This document shows positions 29,322 through 37,182 of a stretch of DNA of 56,571 nt, one piece after another; position 1 is the stretch's first letter, and every line of letters starts with the position of its first letter. Both the position numbers and the translations under genes were made by a program. Source of the stretch: Spirochaetota bacterium (lineage in GTDB: Bacteria; Spirochaetota; UBA4802; UBA5550); the NCBI GenBank assembly GCA_003246895.1, contig QKCL01000082.1:1-56571 (forward strand), given 5' to 3'. Below the pieces are notes generated by a model, which made no database searches, was not told the origin of the DNA, and saw only the letters and a list, made by a program, of their open reading frames with translations.

Positions 29322-30056
29322 ATGATGCTTAAAGATTATTTTTTGGAAATAAACAAGAAAACCGTAAAAAAAACTGCAGCCAAAAAGGCCGCATCCAAGA
29401 AAACGACATCCAAAAAAGTGACTTCGAAGGGAAGTACCGAAAAGATAGATATAAAATATCTCACAGAGAGGATTTCATCAATATCTCCTTCAAACATAAA
29501 AGTCGGGCCATACAAGCCCATTGACCAGTCAGGTTTTTCACCTGAAGGTGCAGATCTTATTGCATACGAAAATTACTGTGAGGCACTCCCCGAGATTTTT
29601 AATAATTACATTCCATTTGAACTGATAAAGGGAGCGTATTTTTTTGTTGAAGAACTTTCCAAGACCAGTCTTGCTGAGGTATTGAACAGGGTTTCTACGG
29701 TAAAAAGAATAAACAGGTTTGTTGAGTCAGAAAACAGCTTTAATCTTCCATCATTTATTGTCGCAGGCCCTCCTGAAAGTTATTCCCTGCTTGATATTAA
29801 AAACGATCTGACTAATTATTATATCTCAAAGAGTGTGGAGAGTGAATCTGAATTTGAGATTCTGGCTGTTATCAATTACGGTATTATAGTCAAGGACTGG
29901 AATCATGGAGCCAGAAGCTTTATTGCACTGGAAACCGCCGAGGATACACTGATGTGGCTTTTTGTACTCATGAATGAATATCTGGACATTGAAAGAGAAG
30001 AATCATTTGATTTGAGAAGTTATATAAAAAACGAAAAGGTATATAATGAGTATTGA
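29322..30056 (+). CDS. Unknown protein with a lysine-rich histone-like N-terminus
   Basis: A 244-residue cytoplasmic protein. Residues 12-41 are almost only Lys, Ala, Ser and Thr (KKTAAKKAASKKTTSKK), like the tails of bacterial histone H1-like proteins, and may bind nucleic acid or polyanions. The rest is a mixed alpha/beta domain (FNNYIPFELIKGAYFFVEEL, then FEILAVINYGIIVKDWNHGARSF) that I do not recognise. AAGGACGG precedes the start; ATG at 29322 or 29325 are both possible. It has its own promoter and opens the cluster containing the vWA protein and CfpA. A similar tail occurs on TatC in this window. Confidence 0.6.
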   Translation: MMLKDYFLEINKKTVKKTAAKKAASKKTTSKKVTSKGSTEKIDIKYLTERISSISPSNIKVGPYKPIDQSGFSPEGADLIAYENYCEALPEIFNNYIPFELIKGAYFFVEELSKTSLAEVLNRVSTVKRINRFVESENSFNLPSFIVAGPPESYSLLDIKNDLTNYYISKSVESESEFEILAVINYGIIVKDWNHGARSFIALETAEDTLMWLFVLMNEYLDIEREESFDLRSYIKNEKVYNEY

Positions 30057-30134
30057 AAATTAGTGCATAATATTTGTTGACATTGATTTTTAAATGTATT
30101 AGCCTTTAAAAAAGTTAGTTTAATAAAGGGGAAA

Positions 30135-31280
30135 GTGGTGGAGAAAAGAACAAGTTTTAATAAATTAACCCGTCTTTTTGTTTTATTTTCTGTTTCACTT
30201 GTACTTATTCTTAGTTCTGTTAACGCCAGGGCTGAAAACAATAAGGATGTAATCCTTGTTCTTGATACTTCAATGAGTATGATAGGCTATGGCGGCAAAA
30301 ATATCATGCCTGATGTTAAGGACAGCATAAACAAGTATGTTGACGGTTTAAAAGACGGAGATAGAGTTACGTTTATCACCTTTGATAAAGATGTGAAAGT
30401 CTTTCCAACCGTTCTCATTGATGATAAAAATGACAGGGATATCGTAAAGAAATATATTTCGGTAACCGAGGCGAAAGGTGAATGGACCTTTACAATGAAA
30501 ATGCTTAATCAGGTTTTTTCTCTGGCAGACAAGATTTCAAAGGAGAACGGCACCAGTAGAAATCTTGTAATTCTTATAATGACAGACGCACTTGATGATC
30601 CTCCGCCCGGTAAAAGAAAAGACAAGTTTAATCTGAAAAATATTGCAGACCAGTATAGCGGAAAGGACTGGTGGATATATCTGGTAAATCTCGCTAATCT
30701 TAAGGAATCATCAAAGTTGAGGCAGGCTCAGGAAAAACTCAAGGGTGAGCTTTCAAAGATAAGTGAAAATTCCCAAATTGTGGATGGAAGTGATCCATAT
30801 AAGGCAATTAATGAAAAAATTCAGCCTGATATAGCAAAGAAGGAGAGGGTTCAATTTATAATCTTTATTCTTCTGGCATTGGCCGCAGTTCTTGGATGTC
30901 TGCTGGTTCTATTCCTGGTTATAAAGAGAATCAAATCTGTGAAACTTGTCGGCGTTCTTGAATTCTGGAATCATGAGCTTCTCAAACCTGAGGTTGGAGT
31001 TGCACACCTTGAGAGATACAATGCAGGTATGATTATTGTTGGAAGGGTGCCAGGTTGTCAGCTTAAAATAAGGGAATATGAATCACGTATACCATTTACT
31101 TTAAAAGCGTCAAGGATAAATGGTGAGGTGAAAGTTCAGTTACTGGTTCCGGAGGGATTGAATTCCCATTTTAAGAACAAGGAAGCAGGCAATACCCTTG
31201 AAAATGGAGATATTTTCCAGGTTGAAAACTACAGCTTTAGATATTTGGCTGAAAATTTATCTGAAGATAAGAATTTATAA
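30135..31280 (+). CDS. vWA-domain membrane protein with a cytoplasmic FHA-like domain
   Basis: A 381-residue protein. A signal peptide (cleavage after ARA, about residue 33) leads to a von Willebrand A domain (about 37-230) with an intact MIDAS metal site: D44-T-S46-M-S48, Thr118 and Asp151. One membrane helix spans about 241-263. The last 110 residues look like an FHA domain (VGRVPGCQLKI, then NTLENGDIFQVENYSFRY), placed in the cytoplasm by the topology. In T. pallidum the vWA protein TP0750 lies near cfpA, as I recall. GTG start; AAAGGGGAAAG upstream. A TTGACA at 30077-30082 may belong to its promoter, without a clear -10. It may connect periplasmic ligand binding to the cytoplasmic filament. 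Confidence 0.75.
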   Translation: MVEKRTSFNKLTRLFVLFSVSLVLILSSVNARAENNKDVILVLDTSMSMIGYGGKNIMPDVKDSINKYVDGLKDGDRVTFITFDKDVKVFPTVLIDDKNDRDIVKKYISVTEAKGEWTFTMKMLNQVFSLADKISKENGTSRNLVILIMTDALDDPPPGKRKDKFNLKNIADQYSGKDWWIYLVNLANLKESSKLRQAQEKLKGELSKISENSQIVDGSDPYKAINEKIQPDIAKKERVQFIIFILLALAAVLGCLLVLFLVIKRIKSVKLVGVLEFWNHELLKPEVGVAHLERYNAGMIIVGRVPGCQLKIREYESRIPFTLKASRINGEVKVQLLVPEGLNSHFKNKEAGNTLENGDIFQVENYSFRYLAENLSEDKNL

Positions 31281-31329: not shown

Positions 31330-31359
31330 TTGACATAATAAATATTGAATGATTATATT
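31330..31359 (+). promoter_or_regulatory. Strong promoter of cfpA
   Basis: TTGACA (31330-31335), 18-base spacer, TATATT (31354-31359). It is followed by a roughly 80-base AT-rich leader and a consensus AAGGAGGT ribosome site at 31433-31440, eight bases before the ATG, which fits an abundant protein. Confidence 0.65.
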
Positions 31360-31447: not shown

Positions 31448-33430
31448 ATGTCTATAGGTCAATTCCCCAAAAGCCCTAATAAGGTTCACCCTACAGTCCC
31501 AAGTGCGGTTGGTTCGAGGGAATCAATTGTTCAGGAGGGAAGGGATAAAGTTGCTGAGGCTGACCTTATTCTGAATGAAACTTATGATAAAGTTCTGAAT
31601 CACATTCAGACTAAACTCCCAGAGGAAGTTCTTAAGGAACTTGATGTTATGGGTGGCTTAAAAGAGAAGTTATATAATTACATCAACCAGACATATGTAA
31701 ATATGTTTAACAGATATACTGTTACAATGGAAGATGAATTTCTGAAAAAAGTCAGAGACTTTGTAGACAAGGAAGAGGCCAAGGGTTTGGCAAGGTATAC
31801 ACCGAAAGAGATTGTTGAAATTCTCGATAAAGTAGGTGGTGCTGATAAATTCCACACTGGTGAAATTGAAAAATCCATCGTAAACATGTATGGTCACCTT
31901 CAGGGACATATTCAAAGGGGAGTAAACGACCTCGAAGTTGAGACTAACTCAATATTAAGACAAAAAACTGATGTAGGGGCATTCGTACGAGGTGAAAATG
32001 CCTATGCGATCCTTAAATGTGTCTTCAAGGATAATGAATTAAGACCAAAATATGTATATGATGTAAAGCTATCGATCAATATTCTTGAAAGTGAGCTCAT
32101 TAGTCCAATGTATCACTATCAGGTTACTGTTGAATCAATCATGAAAGATACAATACAGAAACATATTCAGGACCTTATTGAAAAGCAGGTTGAAAAGTTT
32201 AACGACGAACTTGTTGATCAGGGTAAAAATGAATTAAATGCAAGCGAAAAGATGTTTGAAAAAGTGAAAAGAATTGAAAATTTCACTGATGATGAGAAGG
32301 AAGATGAAAAGTCAAAAAGATATACAATTCTTGCTAAAAAATTCCTCGATAAAATTGAGGGACTCAGAGCAGAAATTGATGTAGAGGATATGGATCCTCT
32401 TAATGTTCGGGAAAACATCAAGTACATAATTGATGAGGAGAATATCAGAAACAGGGGTTATAACACATGTATTAACTCTATCACTTCAATTCTCGATACA
32501 AGTAAACTCGGTTATCAGGTATGTGATAACATGAAGAATGCAAGGATTTGCAGAATCAGTGAGTATGAAGAAACTGACAAAATGATTCTACCAGATGAAA
32601 GATATACAATAAGAATGGCGTATTATGATCAGAATCAGCTAAAAGAGTCTAAAAAAGAGTATGACAAGCAGGTAGCCGCATTTACAACAGAGATTGGTAT
32701 GGCTTGGGATGTAGTACATGCTCATTATGAATCCAAAAAAAGGTTCAGGTCATTACAGGATTTTGAAGACCTGAGTGCAAGACTTATGAACAAAGAGTGG
32801 AAGAGGCAGAAGAAGGATTATGACACCGATCCTGATAATGTACTCTGGAATGAAATTGGTGAAATGTATATTGAATCAACATTCGTTGAAAAAAATAACA
32901 GAACGTATGAAGACAGATATAAAAACCTTAAGGGAAAACTTACTTATCTTAAAGATAAACTTGCTAAAATGCACGGTTATCAGAACCCTGTTGAGAGAGT
33001 TATTCTTGATGAAAGACTAAGTTTCCTTGAAAAGAGGTTTAACGAGTTTACACATCTTGTTAACCCGCATCATATTCAGCCTGGACTGGTTCTTGATATT
33101 GACATTACAACAATAAAGAGAAAGCAGTATATACTGAAGAGTATGGCAAATGTCCTTAATGAGTTCCTTTACAGTGTATCTAAAGGATTCGCAGATGCTG
33201 CCTTTGCTACATATTCAAGAAGAAGATCTACAGTCAGGGATGATATTTCACAATCATTCGGAGAAGAAGAGATTGGAGAAGATCTTTTTGAAACTGCTTA
33301 CAGATCTGATTCAGGGTCTAATATTGACCTTACTGCTTCTCCTGAAATTTCAGGACAGGTTCAGCTTTCTCCAGATGTTTCTTCAAGAAAATCTAAAAGG
33401 AAAAGTTCCGGCGGTCTGAAAGAACTTTAA
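31448..33430 (+). CDS. cfpA: Cytoplasmic filament protein A
   Basis: A 660-residue, highly charged, mostly helical protein that I recognise as spirochaetal CfpA, the subunit of the ribbon of cytoplasmic filaments that lies under the inner membrane along the flagella. Recognisable stretches include NMYGHLQGHIQRGVNDLE, RQKTDVGAFVRGENAYA and DPLNVRENIKYIIDEENIRN. Length agrees with the treponemal protein (about 680). No signal peptide or membrane helix. The last 60 residues are low-complexity and Ser/Arg/Lys-rich. A consensus ribosome site, a strong promoter and an immediate terminator indicate high, single-gene expression. Recognition is from memory of the family. Confidence 0.75.
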   Translation: MSIGQFPKSPNKVHPTVPSAVGSRESIVQEGRDKVAEADLILNETYDKVLNHIQTKLPEEVLKELDVMGGLKEKLYNYINQTYVNMFNRYTVTMEDEFLKKVRDFVDKEEAKGLARYTPKEIVEILDKVGGADKFHTGEIEKSIVNMYGHLQGHIQRGVNDLEVETNSILRQKTDVGAFVRGENAYAILKCVFKDNELRPKYVYDVKLSINILESELISPMYHYQVTVESIMKDTIQKHIQDLIEKQVEKFNDELVDQGKNELNASEKMFEKVKRIENFTDDEKEDEKSKRYTILAKKFLDKIEGLRAEIDVEDMDPLNVRENIKYIIDEENIRNRGYNTCINSITSILDTSKLGYQVCDNMKNARICRISEYEETDKMILPDERYTIRMAYYDQNQLKESKKEYDKQVAAFTTEIGMAWDVVHAHYESKKRFRSLQDFEDLSARLMNKEWKRQKKDYDTDPDNVLWNEIGEMYIESTFVEKNNRTYEDRYKNLKGKLTYLKDKLAKMHGYQNPVERVILDERLSFLEKRFNEFTHLVNPHHIQPGLVLDIDITTIKRKQYILKSMANVLNEFLYSVSKGFADAAFATYSRRRSTVRDDISQSFGEEEIGEDLFETAYRSDSGSNIDLTASPEISGQVQLSPDVSSRKSKRKSSGGLKEL

Positions 33431-33568: not shown

Positions 33569-34486
33569 ATGGAAACTACATATTTTTCACTAGGTTCAAA
33601 GGCTGCATTTAATAAAGCCTTACGTCATTTTTTTAAAGTTAATGAGGCGGTAGAGGAAGTTGATTCACGTGTAAATATTGCAGATTATATTAACGAGTTA
33701 ATAGATGATGAAGAGATACACCAGGATCAGATTTTGCCGATTATAGGTTCTGTAATCAGGGATAAGTTTGCATACAGCAACAGATCAATAAATATCCCTT
33801 CTAATATAACGAATTTTGATAAAATAATAAATGAAACAGTTAAGTGGACTGCATTGGATATCGTTGCGGTATATTTTACACCTGATGGGCATAGATCGGT
33901 AATTAATCCCAAGGGCCTTGACAGCTGGGAACGTGTCCGTGAGTTATCTGCAGACCAGCTTATTGTGCTCTATGTTAAAGATCTAAAAGAGGATGACAAG
34001 AGTGTTGAGACTGAAGCAATTAAGACTCTTGAAGATCTGATTTTTGGAAAAGATGTCTTCAGCAATAAAAAATTCGTTGATAATACTGTTGCAGAAAAAC
34101 CAAAAGATGTTGTTGCTCAGGAAAAGGTTGTTGCTTCGCAACCGGTGAAGAAAAAGAGAAATATAACACCAAAATATGGAGTTCAGGTTTCAAATGAGTT
34201 GTTTCACAATGGAAATGTTGAAGCCTGGAAAAAAATTGTGGAAAGCTACCATACTAAATATCCGGAACTTGAAGTTCATATTATGTTTGAAGGTGAAGTG
34301 ATAAATGATATAAACTCATTGTTTAAATGGGGAAAAGTTAAGCACGGAGATACCATCTTTTTTCAGGTATCAGGAGAGAATATTTTAGGGGTTTCAAAGC
34401 TTCAAAAGTACCTTTATGAAGGGGCAAGTCCAAGATTTGAGCAGTTCTTAAAGCTTGGTGTTGGTAGAGTTCTAAATCTTTTCTAA
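33569..34486 (+). CDS. Unknown protein with a C-terminal HPr-like domain
   Basis: A 305-residue protein. Residues 1-150 form an unrecognised domain (INELIDDEEIHQDQILPIIG), 160-198 a linker, and about 199-284 align with HPr, the PTS phosphocarrier: YGVQVSNELFHNGNVEAW in place of the GLHxRPA strand and helix, then LEVHIMFEGEVINDINSLFK and HGDTIFFQVSGE, matching the SLF and GDxIxxxxxGE positions. His213 falls on the phosphorylated histidine; the Arg-Pro that follow it in HPr are replaced by Gly-Asn, so phosphorylation is uncertain. It lies between cfpA and the PPDK-like gene, 28 bases before the latter, so a partner relation is likely. In T. pallidum TP0747 has this position, as I recall. Confidence 0.6.
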   Translation: METTYFSLGSKAAFNKALRHFFKVNEAVEEVDSRVNIADYINELIDDEEIHQDQILPIIGSVIRDKFAYSNRSINIPSNITNFDKIINETVKWTALDIVAVYFTPDGHRSVINPKGLDSWERVRELSADQLIVLYVKDLKEDDKSVETEAIKTLEDLIFGKDVFSNKKFVDNTVAEKPKDVVAQEKVVASQPVKKKRNITPKYGVQVSNELFHNGNVEAWKKIVESYHTKYPELEVHIMFEGEVINDINSLFKWGKVKHGDTIFFQVSGENILGVSKLQKYLYEGASPRFEQFLKLGVGRVLNLF

Positions 34487-34514: not shown

Positions 34515-37115
34515 ATGGATAATATAATATTTTTTAATGATAAACTGAATAATATTGATGAAATAGACAGTTCAAAAATTGGAATTCGTGGCAGAAGGGC
34601 TGTAGAACTAGCCGGTATGGCTTTGCCTATAGTTCCCGGTTTTATTATAGATTCAGAGCTGACAAAAAATTTAAGTCAGGTAAATATAAAAGACAGAATT
34701 CAGACTTATATTTCACAGATTGAAAAGGACATGAATAAACAATTCGGTGATACAAAGAAACCATTAATGCTGAAGGTTGTTTTGAGCTCTGATTTAAATG
34801 TTCCTTTTTTCCCATCAATACATAATATTGGGATGAATGATGAAACAGTTGAAGGATTCGCCCAGTTTACGAATAGTTCTTTTGCATATGGTGAATATCT
34901 TTATTTAATGAGAAATATCTCCACCAAGCTTTTTGATTTTACAGATGAGGACATTCAGAAAGTTGAAGGAAAACTTCCCAAAAAACCTACTGTCGAACAA
35001 TATAAAAAGGCAATTGATACGTATAAGAAAAGTTTTGGCGAAGAGTATGGTGATGATGTATATGATCAGCTTATCTTTGTTATAAAAAAAGCAGCAGAAA
35101 AATATTGTGATTCCGAGATAGACGTTGATAACACTCTTTCAATTATGATACAGTCAATGGTTTATGGTAATTTTGGAGATAATTCATATTCAGGGAGTTA
35201 TTATACAAGAAACATTGTAACAGGTGATAGAGAGATTCAGGGTGATTTCCTTAAAAATGAGTTTGATTTTACCAGCGGAAAGGTTCAGGAGATTAAAAAG
35301 ATAAATAAAGATTATTATGAAAAATTTTCTGAAATAGCCTGCAAAGTTGAGGAAAATTTTAAAGAGATCAGAAATATTAAATTCACCATAGAAGAAGGTG
35401 ATTTCTGGCTGGTGGAGCAGAGAGAAGTTGATGAAAAATCAACTCAGGCTCAGATTAAAACACTTCTTGACCTGAATCAGTCCGGCATTGTGGCTGATGA
35501 TTTTCTGGTAAGCACCATTAAGCCAGGTCAGTTGAATGAACTCCTTCACCCTGTTATTGATCCAAGAACAGTAAAAAACATGAAGACAATAAAGGGTGGT
35601 ATATCCGGATCGACAGGTGCTGCAATCGGACGAGTGTTTTTCTCTACTCCTAAACTGCTTGAAGAATACAAAAAAGCTATAATGAAAGGACAGGATACTA
35701 ATCTTATTCTTGTTCTTAATGCATCCTATGCAGAGGATGTTAAGGCAATCGAAGTTGCCCAGGGTGTCGTTACAAATGAAGGAGGTTTCTCCTCCCATGC
35801 TCCTGTTGTAGCCAGAAGTCTTGGTAAAGTGGCAATGGTGCAACCGGAAATGAAAATAAAGGGGAACACTTTTACAATCGGTGGAAAAACTGTAAAAGAA
35901 GGTGATTATGTTTCAATAAATGTTCCATATTATGAAGAGCCGACTCTGTATCTCGGCAAGGTCGAGCTGATTCAGCCAGACTTTAATAAAAACGGGCTCA
36001 TTGATTTCCTTAAAATTGTAGAGAAATATATTGATGATTTTGATGTAAGGGCAAATGCAGATCAGGGAAGAGATGCAGATGTAGCAAATGAGTTTAAAGC
36101 AGCGGGTATTGGTTTATGCAGAACTGAGCATATGTTCTTTAATGAAAAACGGATCATGAAATTCCGTGAAATGATAATCGCAGAAAATGATAAAGAGAGA
36201 ATTAAGGTTCTTGAGGCCTTAAAGCCTATGCAGAGATCCGATTTCTATGATCTTTTTAAAGCTATGGCAGGGAAACCTGTTACCATCAGACTACTTGATG
36301 CTCCATTGCATGAGTTCCTTCCACGTTCAGAAGACGGGATGAAAGATTTTATCAAATATATGCAGACAAAGAAAAAGGGTGTTGTCGCAGGAGATATAAG
36401 GTCAAGATGTGAGGAACTTGAAGAGATGAACCCCATGCTGGGACACAGGGGTTGCCGTGTGGCTGTTACATATCCTGAGATTTATGAAATGCAGTGCCGT
36501 GCCATCTTTGAGGCAGCGTGCATGCTTCATAAAGAAGGAATAGAAGTTGAGCCCGAGATAATGATTCCTATAGTAATGAGTGAGCAGGAAATTAAGTTTA
36601 TCAAAAACGGTAAGAAAATTGAGGGTACTGTTGTTAAAGGGATAAGAGATATAAAAAATGAGGTACTTGAGGAATATGGAATTGATGATATCAACTACCA
36701 TGTTGGTACAATGATTGAATTGCCGGCAGCAGCTCTGTTGGCTGGATCAATTGCCGAGTATGCTGAATTCTTCAGTTTTGGTACAAATGACCTGACACAG
36801 ACTACATTTGGATTGTCAAGAGATGATTCCAACTCATTCTTCCCAGACTATTCACTTTTTGACCTTATGAAAAGTAACCCATTCAAGGTCCTTGGACAGC
36901 CTGTGAAAGAACTAATAGGTATTGCGTCAATGAGAGGTAAACTGACAAGACCTGATATAAAAATGGGACTTTGCGGTGAACATGGAGCTAATCCGGATAA
37001 TATTGCATTCTGCATTGATGCAGGATTAAATTATGTATCCTGTTCTCCGTTTTCAATCCCACTAGCAAAATTGGGAATTGCTCAGTATAAAATAGAAAAC
37101 AGCAAGGACGAATAA
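34515..37115 (+). CDS. Pyruvate,phosphate dikinase family protein with a degraded ATP-grasp half
   Basis: An 866-residue protein collinear with PPDK. Intact parts: phosphohistidine domain with His428 in GGFSSHAPVVAR; PEP/pyruvate barrel with GLCRTEHMFF, RLLDAPLHEFLP, NPMLGHRGCR, PEIMIPIVM, FFSFGTNDLTQTTFG and the catalytic Cys820 in GLCGEHG. Degraded parts: the GGKG lysine loop reads GIRG (residues 23-26), the VRSGAR block reads KVVLSSD, and the QGEDVVAG block after GDFL is missing. So it probably still forms phosphohistidine from PEP but may not use ATP and phosphate. Start at ATG 34515 with AGAGG at 34501-34505. Annotated as ppdK in T. pallidum (TP0746, from memory). A terminator follows. 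Confidence 0.8.
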   Translation: MDNIIFFNDKLNNIDEIDSSKIGIRGRRAVELAGMALPIVPGFIIDSELTKNLSQVNIKDRIQTYISQIEKDMNKQFGDTKKPLMLKVVLSSDLNVPFFPSIHNIGMNDETVEGFAQFTNSSFAYGEYLYLMRNISTKLFDFTDEDIQKVEGKLPKKPTVEQYKKAIDTYKKSFGEEYGDDVYDQLIFVIKKAAEKYCDSEIDVDNTLSIMIQSMVYGNFGDNSYSGSYYTRNIVTGDREIQGDFLKNEFDFTSGKVQEIKKINKDYYEKFSEIACKVEENFKEIRNIKFTIEEGDFWLVEQREVDEKSTQAQIKTLLDLNQSGIVADDFLVSTIKPGQLNELLHPVIDPRTVKNMKTIKGGISGSTGAAIGRVFFSTPKLLEEYKKAIMKGQDTNLILVLNASYAEDVKAIEVAQGVVTNEGGFSSHAPVVARSLGKVAMVQPEMKIKGNTFTIGGKTVKEGDYVSINVPYYEEPTLYLGKVELIQPDFNKNGLIDFLKIVEKYIDDFDVRANADQGRDADVANEFKAAGIGLCRTEHMFFNEKRIMKFREMIIAENDKERIKVLEALKPMQRSDFYDLFKAMAGKPVTIRLLDAPLHEFLPRSEDGMKDFIKYMQTKKKGVVAGDIRSRCEELEEMNPMLGHRGCRVAVTYPEIYEMQCRAIFEAACMLHKEGIEVEPEIMIPIVMSEQEIKFIKNGKKIEGTVVKGIRDIKNEVLEEYGIDDINYHVGTMIELPAAALLAGSIAEYAEFFSFGTNDLTQTTFGLSRDDSNSFFPDYSLFDLMKSNPFKVLGQPVKELIGIASMRGKLTRPDIKMGLCGEHGANPDNIAFCIDAGLNYVSCSPFSIPLAKLGIAQYKIENSKDE

Positions 37116-37130
37116 TCTATTTCTTATTAT

Positions 37131-37170
37131 AAACAAAAAAAAGAGTGCGCAATGCACTCTTTTTTTTGTT
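37131..37170. terminator. Bidirectional terminator between the PPDK-like gene and pgk
   Basis: GAGTGC (37143-37148) pairs with GCACTC (37154-37159); flanking A-run and T-run extend the stem to about 14 pairs (AAAAAAAA against TTTTTTTT). It serves both converging genes. Confidence 0.85.
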
Positions 37171-37182
37171 TATGTGTTATGT

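Follow-up and report, generated by a model that had tools for sequence, protein, structure and literature searches.

A spirochaete PPDK-like protein with an altered ATP side, possibly the start of a phosphoenolpyruvate-driven relay beside the CfpA filament gene

What does a relative of pyruvate, phosphate dikinase (PPDK) do once the catalytic residues of its ATP side are gone and those of its phosphoenolpyruvate (PEP) side are kept? This question is raised by a gene on contig QKCL01000082.1 of a Spirochaetota bacterium (assembly GCA_003246895.1), whose whole 56,571-nucleotide stretch is here called the window. The gene encodes a PPDK-like protein, PPDKL, and follows cfpA and the gene of a 305-amino-acid protein, D305, in the order cfpA, D305 gene, PPDKL on the + strand of the window. 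An earlier note, made from the sequence alone, had suggested that such an enzyme could pass phosphate between PEP and a partner other than ATP or phosphate, as Enzyme I of the phosphotransferase system (PTS) does. We propose, with our confidence evenly divided, that PPDKL is a PPDK paralogue turned PEP:protein histidine phosphotransferase that hands phosphate to D305 and, together with it, serves the CfpA filament.

31448..33430, + strand: cfpA, cytoplasmic filament protein CfpA (NF040882, 903.7 bits, above the cut-off of 500)
33569..34486, + strand: gene of D305, 305 amino acids with two predicted HPr-fold domains, ending 28 bp upstream of PPDKL
34515..37115, + strand: PPDKL, 866 amino acids in a single open frame (from the open reading frame, Pfam, TIGR01828 and alignment to 1dik)

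The start codon of PPDKL, an ATG at 34515, agreed with the starts of its orthologues. The encoded protein consists of a diverged ATP-grasp domain (residues ~20-340), a phosphohistidine swivel domain (~355-480) and a PEP-binding barrel (506-858). Clostridium symbiosum PPDK (1dik) matched it with an E-value of 1.7e-163 over residues 22-862 (1dik 19-873), and the TIGR01828 model aligned over positions 16-865, with the PPDK domain order present. PF00391 and PF02896, the swivel and PEP barrel also present in Enzyme I, matched above their Pfam cut-offs. Alignment to C. symbiosum PPDK, whose numbering is used for all reference residues, placed the key positions as follows.

34587..34589, + strand: Arg25, replacing the ATP-grasp Lys22 (alignment)
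34779..34781, + strand: Val89, replacing Arg92 (alignment)
35379..35381, + strand: Lys289, replacing Glu323 (alignment)
35415..35417, + strand: Glu301, replacing Gln335 (alignment)
35796..35798, + strand: His428, equivalent to the phosphohistidine His455, invariant (alignment)
36030..37088, + strand: PEP-binding barrel PF02896, residues 506-858 (Pfam and alignment)
36972..36974, + strand: Cys820, equivalent to the catalytic Cys831, invariant (alignment)

Further changes on the ATP side were Arg96 to Asp93, Arg135 to Tyr130 and Asp321 to Asn287, and the QGE at 277-279 was replaced or deleted; Arg337 was retained as Arg303. On the PEP side, Arg561 (Arg536 in PPDKL), Arg617 (Arg592), Glu745 (Glu735) and Asn768 (Asn758) were all intact. 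The earlier note was therefore right that His428, the PEP barrel motifs and Cys820 are intact and that the GGKG lysine, the VRSGAR arginines and the QGE block are replaced or missing. Its wording that the ATP-grasp half was lost has to be narrowed, since residues ~20-340 are still present as a diverged domain and only the catalytic residues are lost. An alignment of 31 loci and a later one of 103 revealed no ATP-side lysine or arginine relocated to a shifted position, and the claim of their loss stands.

Do these replacements mark a decaying gene or a settled family? Orthologues were collected among relatives of the window genome and in a scan of named genomes, and 103 of the 107 loci gave an alignment row (L067, L104, L107 and L130 were excluded for a frame too short or no copy); since several loci were the same genome twice, they amounted to 79 distinct PPDKL sequences including that of the window. 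Lys22 was replaced by Arg, and Arg92 by Val, in all 78 sequences covering those sites, while Glu at 323 and Gln at 335 occurred in 0/79. His455, Glu745 and Cys831 were retained in 79/79, and Arg561, Arg617 and Asn768 in 78/79, the exception being L103, from a Myxococcota metagenome-assembled genome (MAG). Eighteen canonical paralogues from the same phylum, chosen from a longer list of second matches, all kept the mapped residues, except at position 96 and for one gap at 135. In a tree of 56 rows, built by a quick search without bootstrap, the degenerate copies formed one group with 100% support in the SH-like approximate likelihood-ratio test (SH-aLRT); its stem measured 1.82 changes per column.

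The same separation appeared in model scores and in sequence identities. PPDKL of the window scored 701.4 bits against TIGR01828, below the equivalog cut-off of 843.45, and in 12 genomes PPDKLs scored 608-704 bits against 1277-1431 for four intact canonical copies. The expectation that annotation pipelines would call the protein an ordinary ppdK thus fails for TIGR01828, but it holds for the Treponema pallidum orthologue, which is annotated and discussed as a PPDK. Within the window's order, mean identity was 68.5% for the ATP-grasp domain of PPDKL versus 71.0% for that of canonical copies, and 81.8% versus 72.3% for the PEP domain (36 pairs each). In comparisons with two other orders, PPDKL was freer in its ATP-grasp domain, with 38.6% versus 57.9% (18 pairs each), and in nine relatives with both proteins this domain was ~25% identical to that of the canonical copy in the same genome. 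Because the same replacements recur from family to family, and because the domain is normally constrained within the order, we rejected decay or assembly error as the cause of the changes; judged by sequence, PPDKL is a fixed subfamily and not a broken gene.

The PPDKL match in G287 (C1:2158154-2160049, a single-contig genome of family f24) ends at residue 623 in a frame of 655 amino acids; this genome holds cfpA and the 305-amino-acid gene, and its PPDKL is possibly truncated. In the single-contig genome G338 (C1:268761-271428) a frameshift splits the canonical PPDK over two frames, so that PPDKL is the sole intact PPDK-type protein found there. The Myxococcota MAG (L103) carries two cfpA copies together with the 305-amino-acid gene and PPDKL.

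Which protein could take up the phosphate? A candidate is encoded directly upstream. The AlphaFold model of D305 (67 sequences, 305 amino acids) reached a predicted local distance difference test score (pLDDT) of 90.1 and contains the following parts.

33773..34051, + strand: predicted N-terminal HPr-fold domain of D305, residues 69-161, with no conserved His at the place of the HPr active site
34163..34432, + strand: predicted C-terminal HPr-fold domain of D305, residues 199-288, with the nearly invariant block NELFHNGNVEAWK
34205..34207, + strand: His213 of D305, proposed phosphate acceptor, present in 67/67 sequences, immediately preceding the C-terminal domain's first helix

The N-terminal domain aligned with Escherichia coli HPr at a VIA-align Z of 10.8 (1.7 Å, 79/83 residues), and its first 33 structural rows were all HPr, Crh or NPr, the first non-HPr row having a Z of 6.0. 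Modelled alone, the C-terminal domain (pLDDT 90.5) showed the order strand, helix, two strands, helix, strand, helix; HPr was its best match (Z 8.1, 2.0 Å, 78/85), the first 28 rows were HPr or Crh, and the first non-HPr row had a Z of 6.1. Foldseek gave this domain a probability of up to 0.99 against HPr, and in the list for whole D305 an unrelated berberine bridge enzyme came first (probability 0.25) and HPr second (0.93). When residue 6 of the C-domain model is set on residue 1 of HPr, its residue 20 coincides with His15, as mapped by aligned ranges and helix limits. D305 is accordingly predicted to hold two HPr-fold domains, the C-terminal one with a His placed as in the HPr active site.

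The D305 gene also accompanies PPDKL through the phylum. Among 392 Spirochaetota genomes, PPDKL was found in 133, cfpA in 136 and the D305 gene in 134; PPDKL and the D305 gene occurred together in 131, PPDKL and cfpA in 129, all three in 128 and any of them in 140. Fisher tests on this co-occurrence, which ignore relatedness, gave 2.7e-98 and 5.3e-89. PPDKL stood without the D305 gene in G043 and G209 and without cfpA in G040, G043, G044 and G307, whereas cfpA stood without PPDKL in G007, G037, G038, G085, G139, G143 and G217, and the D305 gene without PPDKL in G085, G139 and G217. These genomes are mostly incomplete or fragmentary, with the exception of G037 (93% complete) and G307 (99%). A predicted HPr-fold partner encoded upstream, kept in 131 of the 133 PPDKL genomes, would fit the suggestion that PPDKL hands phosphate from PEP to a protein as Enzyme I does.

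At the level of gene order, the D305 gene adjoins PPDKL in 54 of 56 named loci, and of the other two, L107 is a 3.2-kb contig and L112 lies on a contig that begins inside PPDKL. cfpA was found near PPDKL in 44 of these loci; eight of the 12 without it have less than 1.6 kb upstream of PPDKL, and L084, L085, L088 and L110 have more upstream DNA and still no cfpA there. The linkage is not merely inherited gene order, because family f32 retains all three genes on separate contigs (G092, G098, G119) and in family f34 other genes intervene between the cluster members. PMC3914990 reports joint repression of TDE0842-0844 of Treponema denticola, which encode CfpA, a hypothetical protein and a putative PPDK. 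In a T. denticola cfpA mutant, according to PMC3398590, the filaments are absent and both chromosome condensation and filamentation occur.

Because of this co-occurrence, the predicted HPr folds of D305 and the invariant His residues, we propose a relay from PEP through His428 to His213 that is tied to CfpA. PEP would bind the intact barrel and phosphorylate His428 of PPDKL, a step to which the invariant residues point. Since the ATP-grasp residues are gone from the sequence, the swivel domain would be unable to pass this phosphate to a nucleotide. The phosphate would go to His213 in the C-terminal domain of D305, as the predicted fold, the invariant His, the adjacency and the co-occurrence suggest, and the diverged ATP-grasp domain may have been retained as a docking or regulatory platform at which the carrier docks. 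Genomic linkage further suggests that the PPDKL-D305 pair could serve the CfpA filament as its target or scaffold, and that assembly of the filament or its role in cell division may be coupled to PEP supply. Ordinary PtsI and HPr are also encoded in the window genome, and the relay would therefore be an addition. Taken together, the data suggest an unrecognised phosphate relay in many spirochaetes, probably the syphilis spirochaete among them. It is a more tentative proposal, and one we would not yet lean on, that this is a separate relay of spirochaetes with CfpA filaments, descended from PPDK and not from Enzyme I, running from PEP through His428 and His213 to the CfpA cytoskeleton and coupling the state of glycolysis to filament function and cell division; TP0746 of T. 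pallidum would then be no dikinase but a counterpart of Enzyme I. In the open papers of PubMed Central that were searched, PPDKL was nowhere described as analogous to Enzyme I, the 305-amino-acid family was not likened to HPr, the three genes were not presented as a phosphorelay, and no enzyme partner of the CfpA filament came to light. The main text of a T. pallidum metabolic model paper (PMC12097511) contained none of the PPDK or pyruvate kinase terms.

Several observations weigh against this proposal. For D305, the Z of 8.1 of the C-terminal domain is borderline, at the edge of values from unrelated folds, and the Foldseek E-values against HPr are weak (0.02-0.04 at best). Profile comparison of D305 with HPr was not significant (hhalign probability 1-6%), and D305 gave no Pfam HPr (PF00381) match at E 0.1. 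In HPr, Arg17 follows the active His, and the H-x-R is visible in the HPr alignment rows; D305 has Gly215 in 67/67 sequences where HPr has this Arg two places after the His. For PPDKL, the helical, N-terminal HPr-binding domain of Enzyme I (PF05524) was not found with Pfam at E 1. The PPDKL of L103 also lacks the PEP residues Arg561, Arg617, Asn768 and Asp769, and represents either a transfer or a further decay step. For the filament, cfpA lies away from the PPDKL-D305 pair in some genomes (L085, L088, L110), and it is genomic linkage that suggests the connection in the first place.

The lack of the HPr arginine, together with an N-terminal domain without a conserved His at that place, would also suit a different role, in which PPDKL and D305 contribute to the CfpA filament as structural or sensory components, such as bridges or membrane anchors, with PEP or pyruvate as a signal and no relay to D305. 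Treponemal filaments are reported to have bridging and anchoring components (in a work cited by PMC3398590), and PPDKL and D305 are co-retained with cfpA, as this role would lead one to expect. The invariance of His455, Glu745 and Cys831 in PPDKL and of His213 in D305 nevertheless suits catalysis better, and we consider a purely structural or sensory role unlikely, though it deserves serious attention. PPDKL might, finally, act like Enzyme I on an acceptor other than D305, be it ordinary HPr, which was present in 10/10 genomes tested, CfpA, which has three invariant His residues at 150, 154 and 542 (57/57 sequences), or a small molecule. Against such an acceptor stand the tight adjacency and co-occurrence of the D305 gene and the ordinary PtsI of the window genome, and we regard it as very improbable.

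The last observation on the opposing side comes from T. pallidum. Variant sites of TP0746 at nt 810772 and 811414, as given in a part of PMC10013896, lie inside the PPDKL of genome G096 (810737-813352); because of this we took G096 as T. pallidum, and its PPDKL is likely TP0746. This PPDKL carries the same ATP-side losses, and in G096 neither a pyruvate kinase match nor a PPDK above the TIGR01828 cut-off was found, so that its orthologue might still make pyruvate. TP0746 is also treated as a glycolytic PPDK in passages of PMC10013896 and PMC8525777. PPDKL would then still be a dikinase that makes pyruvate from PEP, its rebuilt pocket, in which Arg25 is joined by a conserved pair of Lys/Arg at 289 and Glu/Asp at 301, having a new way of binding ATP or some other donor or acceptor of phosphate. 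That Lys/Arg occupies 323 in 74/79 sequences, and Glu/Asp 335 in 74/79, looks as if these positions had been reused.

However, Lys22, Arg92, Arg135, Glu323 and Gln335 are all gone. K22A alone abolishes the activity of rifampin phosphotransferase, and Lys22 is also implicated in PPDK, according to a section of PMC4844700, while Arg95 and Glu324 of plant PPDK bind ATP in the account given in part of PMC5507339. Of the 133 PPDKL genomes, 116 contained a further match at E 1e-100, which was canonical-like among the rows listed, and 9 of the 10 genomes tested had a pyruvate kinase match. G096 itself has genes for PEP carboxykinase (PEPCK) and the oxaloacetate decarboxylase alpha subunit, which from gene content are a possible alternative route from PEP to pyruvate. 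We therefore hold a reworked dikinase to be improbable, yet it is the main rival with consequences, sustained by the gene set of T. pallidum.

How does the proposed histidine phosphotransferase compare with known systems? PPDKL shares with PPDK (PpdK; TIGR01828; 1dik) full-length homology, the domain order, the phosphohistidine and the PEP-barrel residues, and differs from it in the replaced catalytic residues of the ATP-grasp domain, a score below the equivalog cut-off and a separate clade on a long stem. With Enzyme I and HPr it has in common the PEP barrel and swivel and, by prediction, a neighbour of HPr fold whose His lies where helix A begins. In contrast to Enzyme I, PPDKL is derived from PPDK and no HPr-binding domain was found in it, and ordinary PtsI and HPr exist alongside it; unlike HPr, D305 carries two HPr-fold domains in one protein, lacks Arg17 and has no match to HPr at the sequence level.

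Among PPDK relatives, VadK (Rv1127c) of Mycobacterium tuberculosis, published in 2026, is described in part of PMC13400623 as a truncated, PPDK-derived histidine kinase that keeps the ATP-binding and His domains. On that description both proteins would be PPDKs diverted from metabolism to histidine phosphotransfer, and PPDKL would be the mirror image, keeping the His and PEP domains with an ATP side that looks dead. Rifampin phosphotransferase and two-component dikinases such as HpeHI have, like PPDKL as proposed here, put the phosphohistidine swivel domain to use on a different acceptor, but they use ATP and a small-molecule acceptor (PMC4844700 and PMC12167813); arm 1 of rifampin phosphotransferase is said in the former to resemble HPr. 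The likeness to the treponeme filament is direct, as the upstream gene encodes CfpA itself (NF040882).

If the relay exists, evolution has produced a PTS-like relay twice, the second time out of a different PEP enzyme, and has connected it to an intermediate-like filament of bacteria. The syphilis spirochaete would lose the ATP-yielding last step of glycolysis that has been assumed for it, and PEPCK with oxaloacetate decarboxylase would be indicated instead, which bears on metabolic models of T. pallidum. The 305-amino-acid family, unnamed and conserved across the phylum, would gain a testable function.

Another PPDK relative is encoded on contig C10 of the window genome (L053:97-3108). This protein of 1003 amino acids has an intact ATP-grasp domain and a phosphohistidine domain and no PEP barrel, and a 460-amino-acid N-terminal part precedes the ATP-grasp domain, an arrangement reminiscent of VadK with an added domain. 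As it is present in only 7/392 genomes, we rejected it as a general partner or missing half of PPDKL.

The remaining features around the three genes are as follows.

29322..30056, + strand: gene of a 244-amino-acid protein, a neighbour in part of the phylum
30135..31280, + strand: gene of a von Willebrand factor A protein whose sequence includes a long hydrophobic stretch, a neighbour in part of the phylum
31330..31359, + strand: sigma-70-like promoter match (11/12) upstream of cfpA; such matches occur no more often in the window than in shuffles
37129..37173, + strand: long terminator-like hairpin of 20 pairs, directly after PPDKL and before the opposing pgk

The 244-amino-acid protein had no family match above any curated cut-off. 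Within the window's order, and also within family f34, its gene and the von Willebrand factor A gene (29322-31280) accompany the cluster. Family f34 has both of them between the D305 gene and PPDKL, along with two more genes, one GAF-GGDEF-like and one of 862 amino acids, whose domains were named by eye. The hairpin at 37129-37173 is likely a terminator shared by PPDKL and the convergent phosphoglycerate kinase gene.

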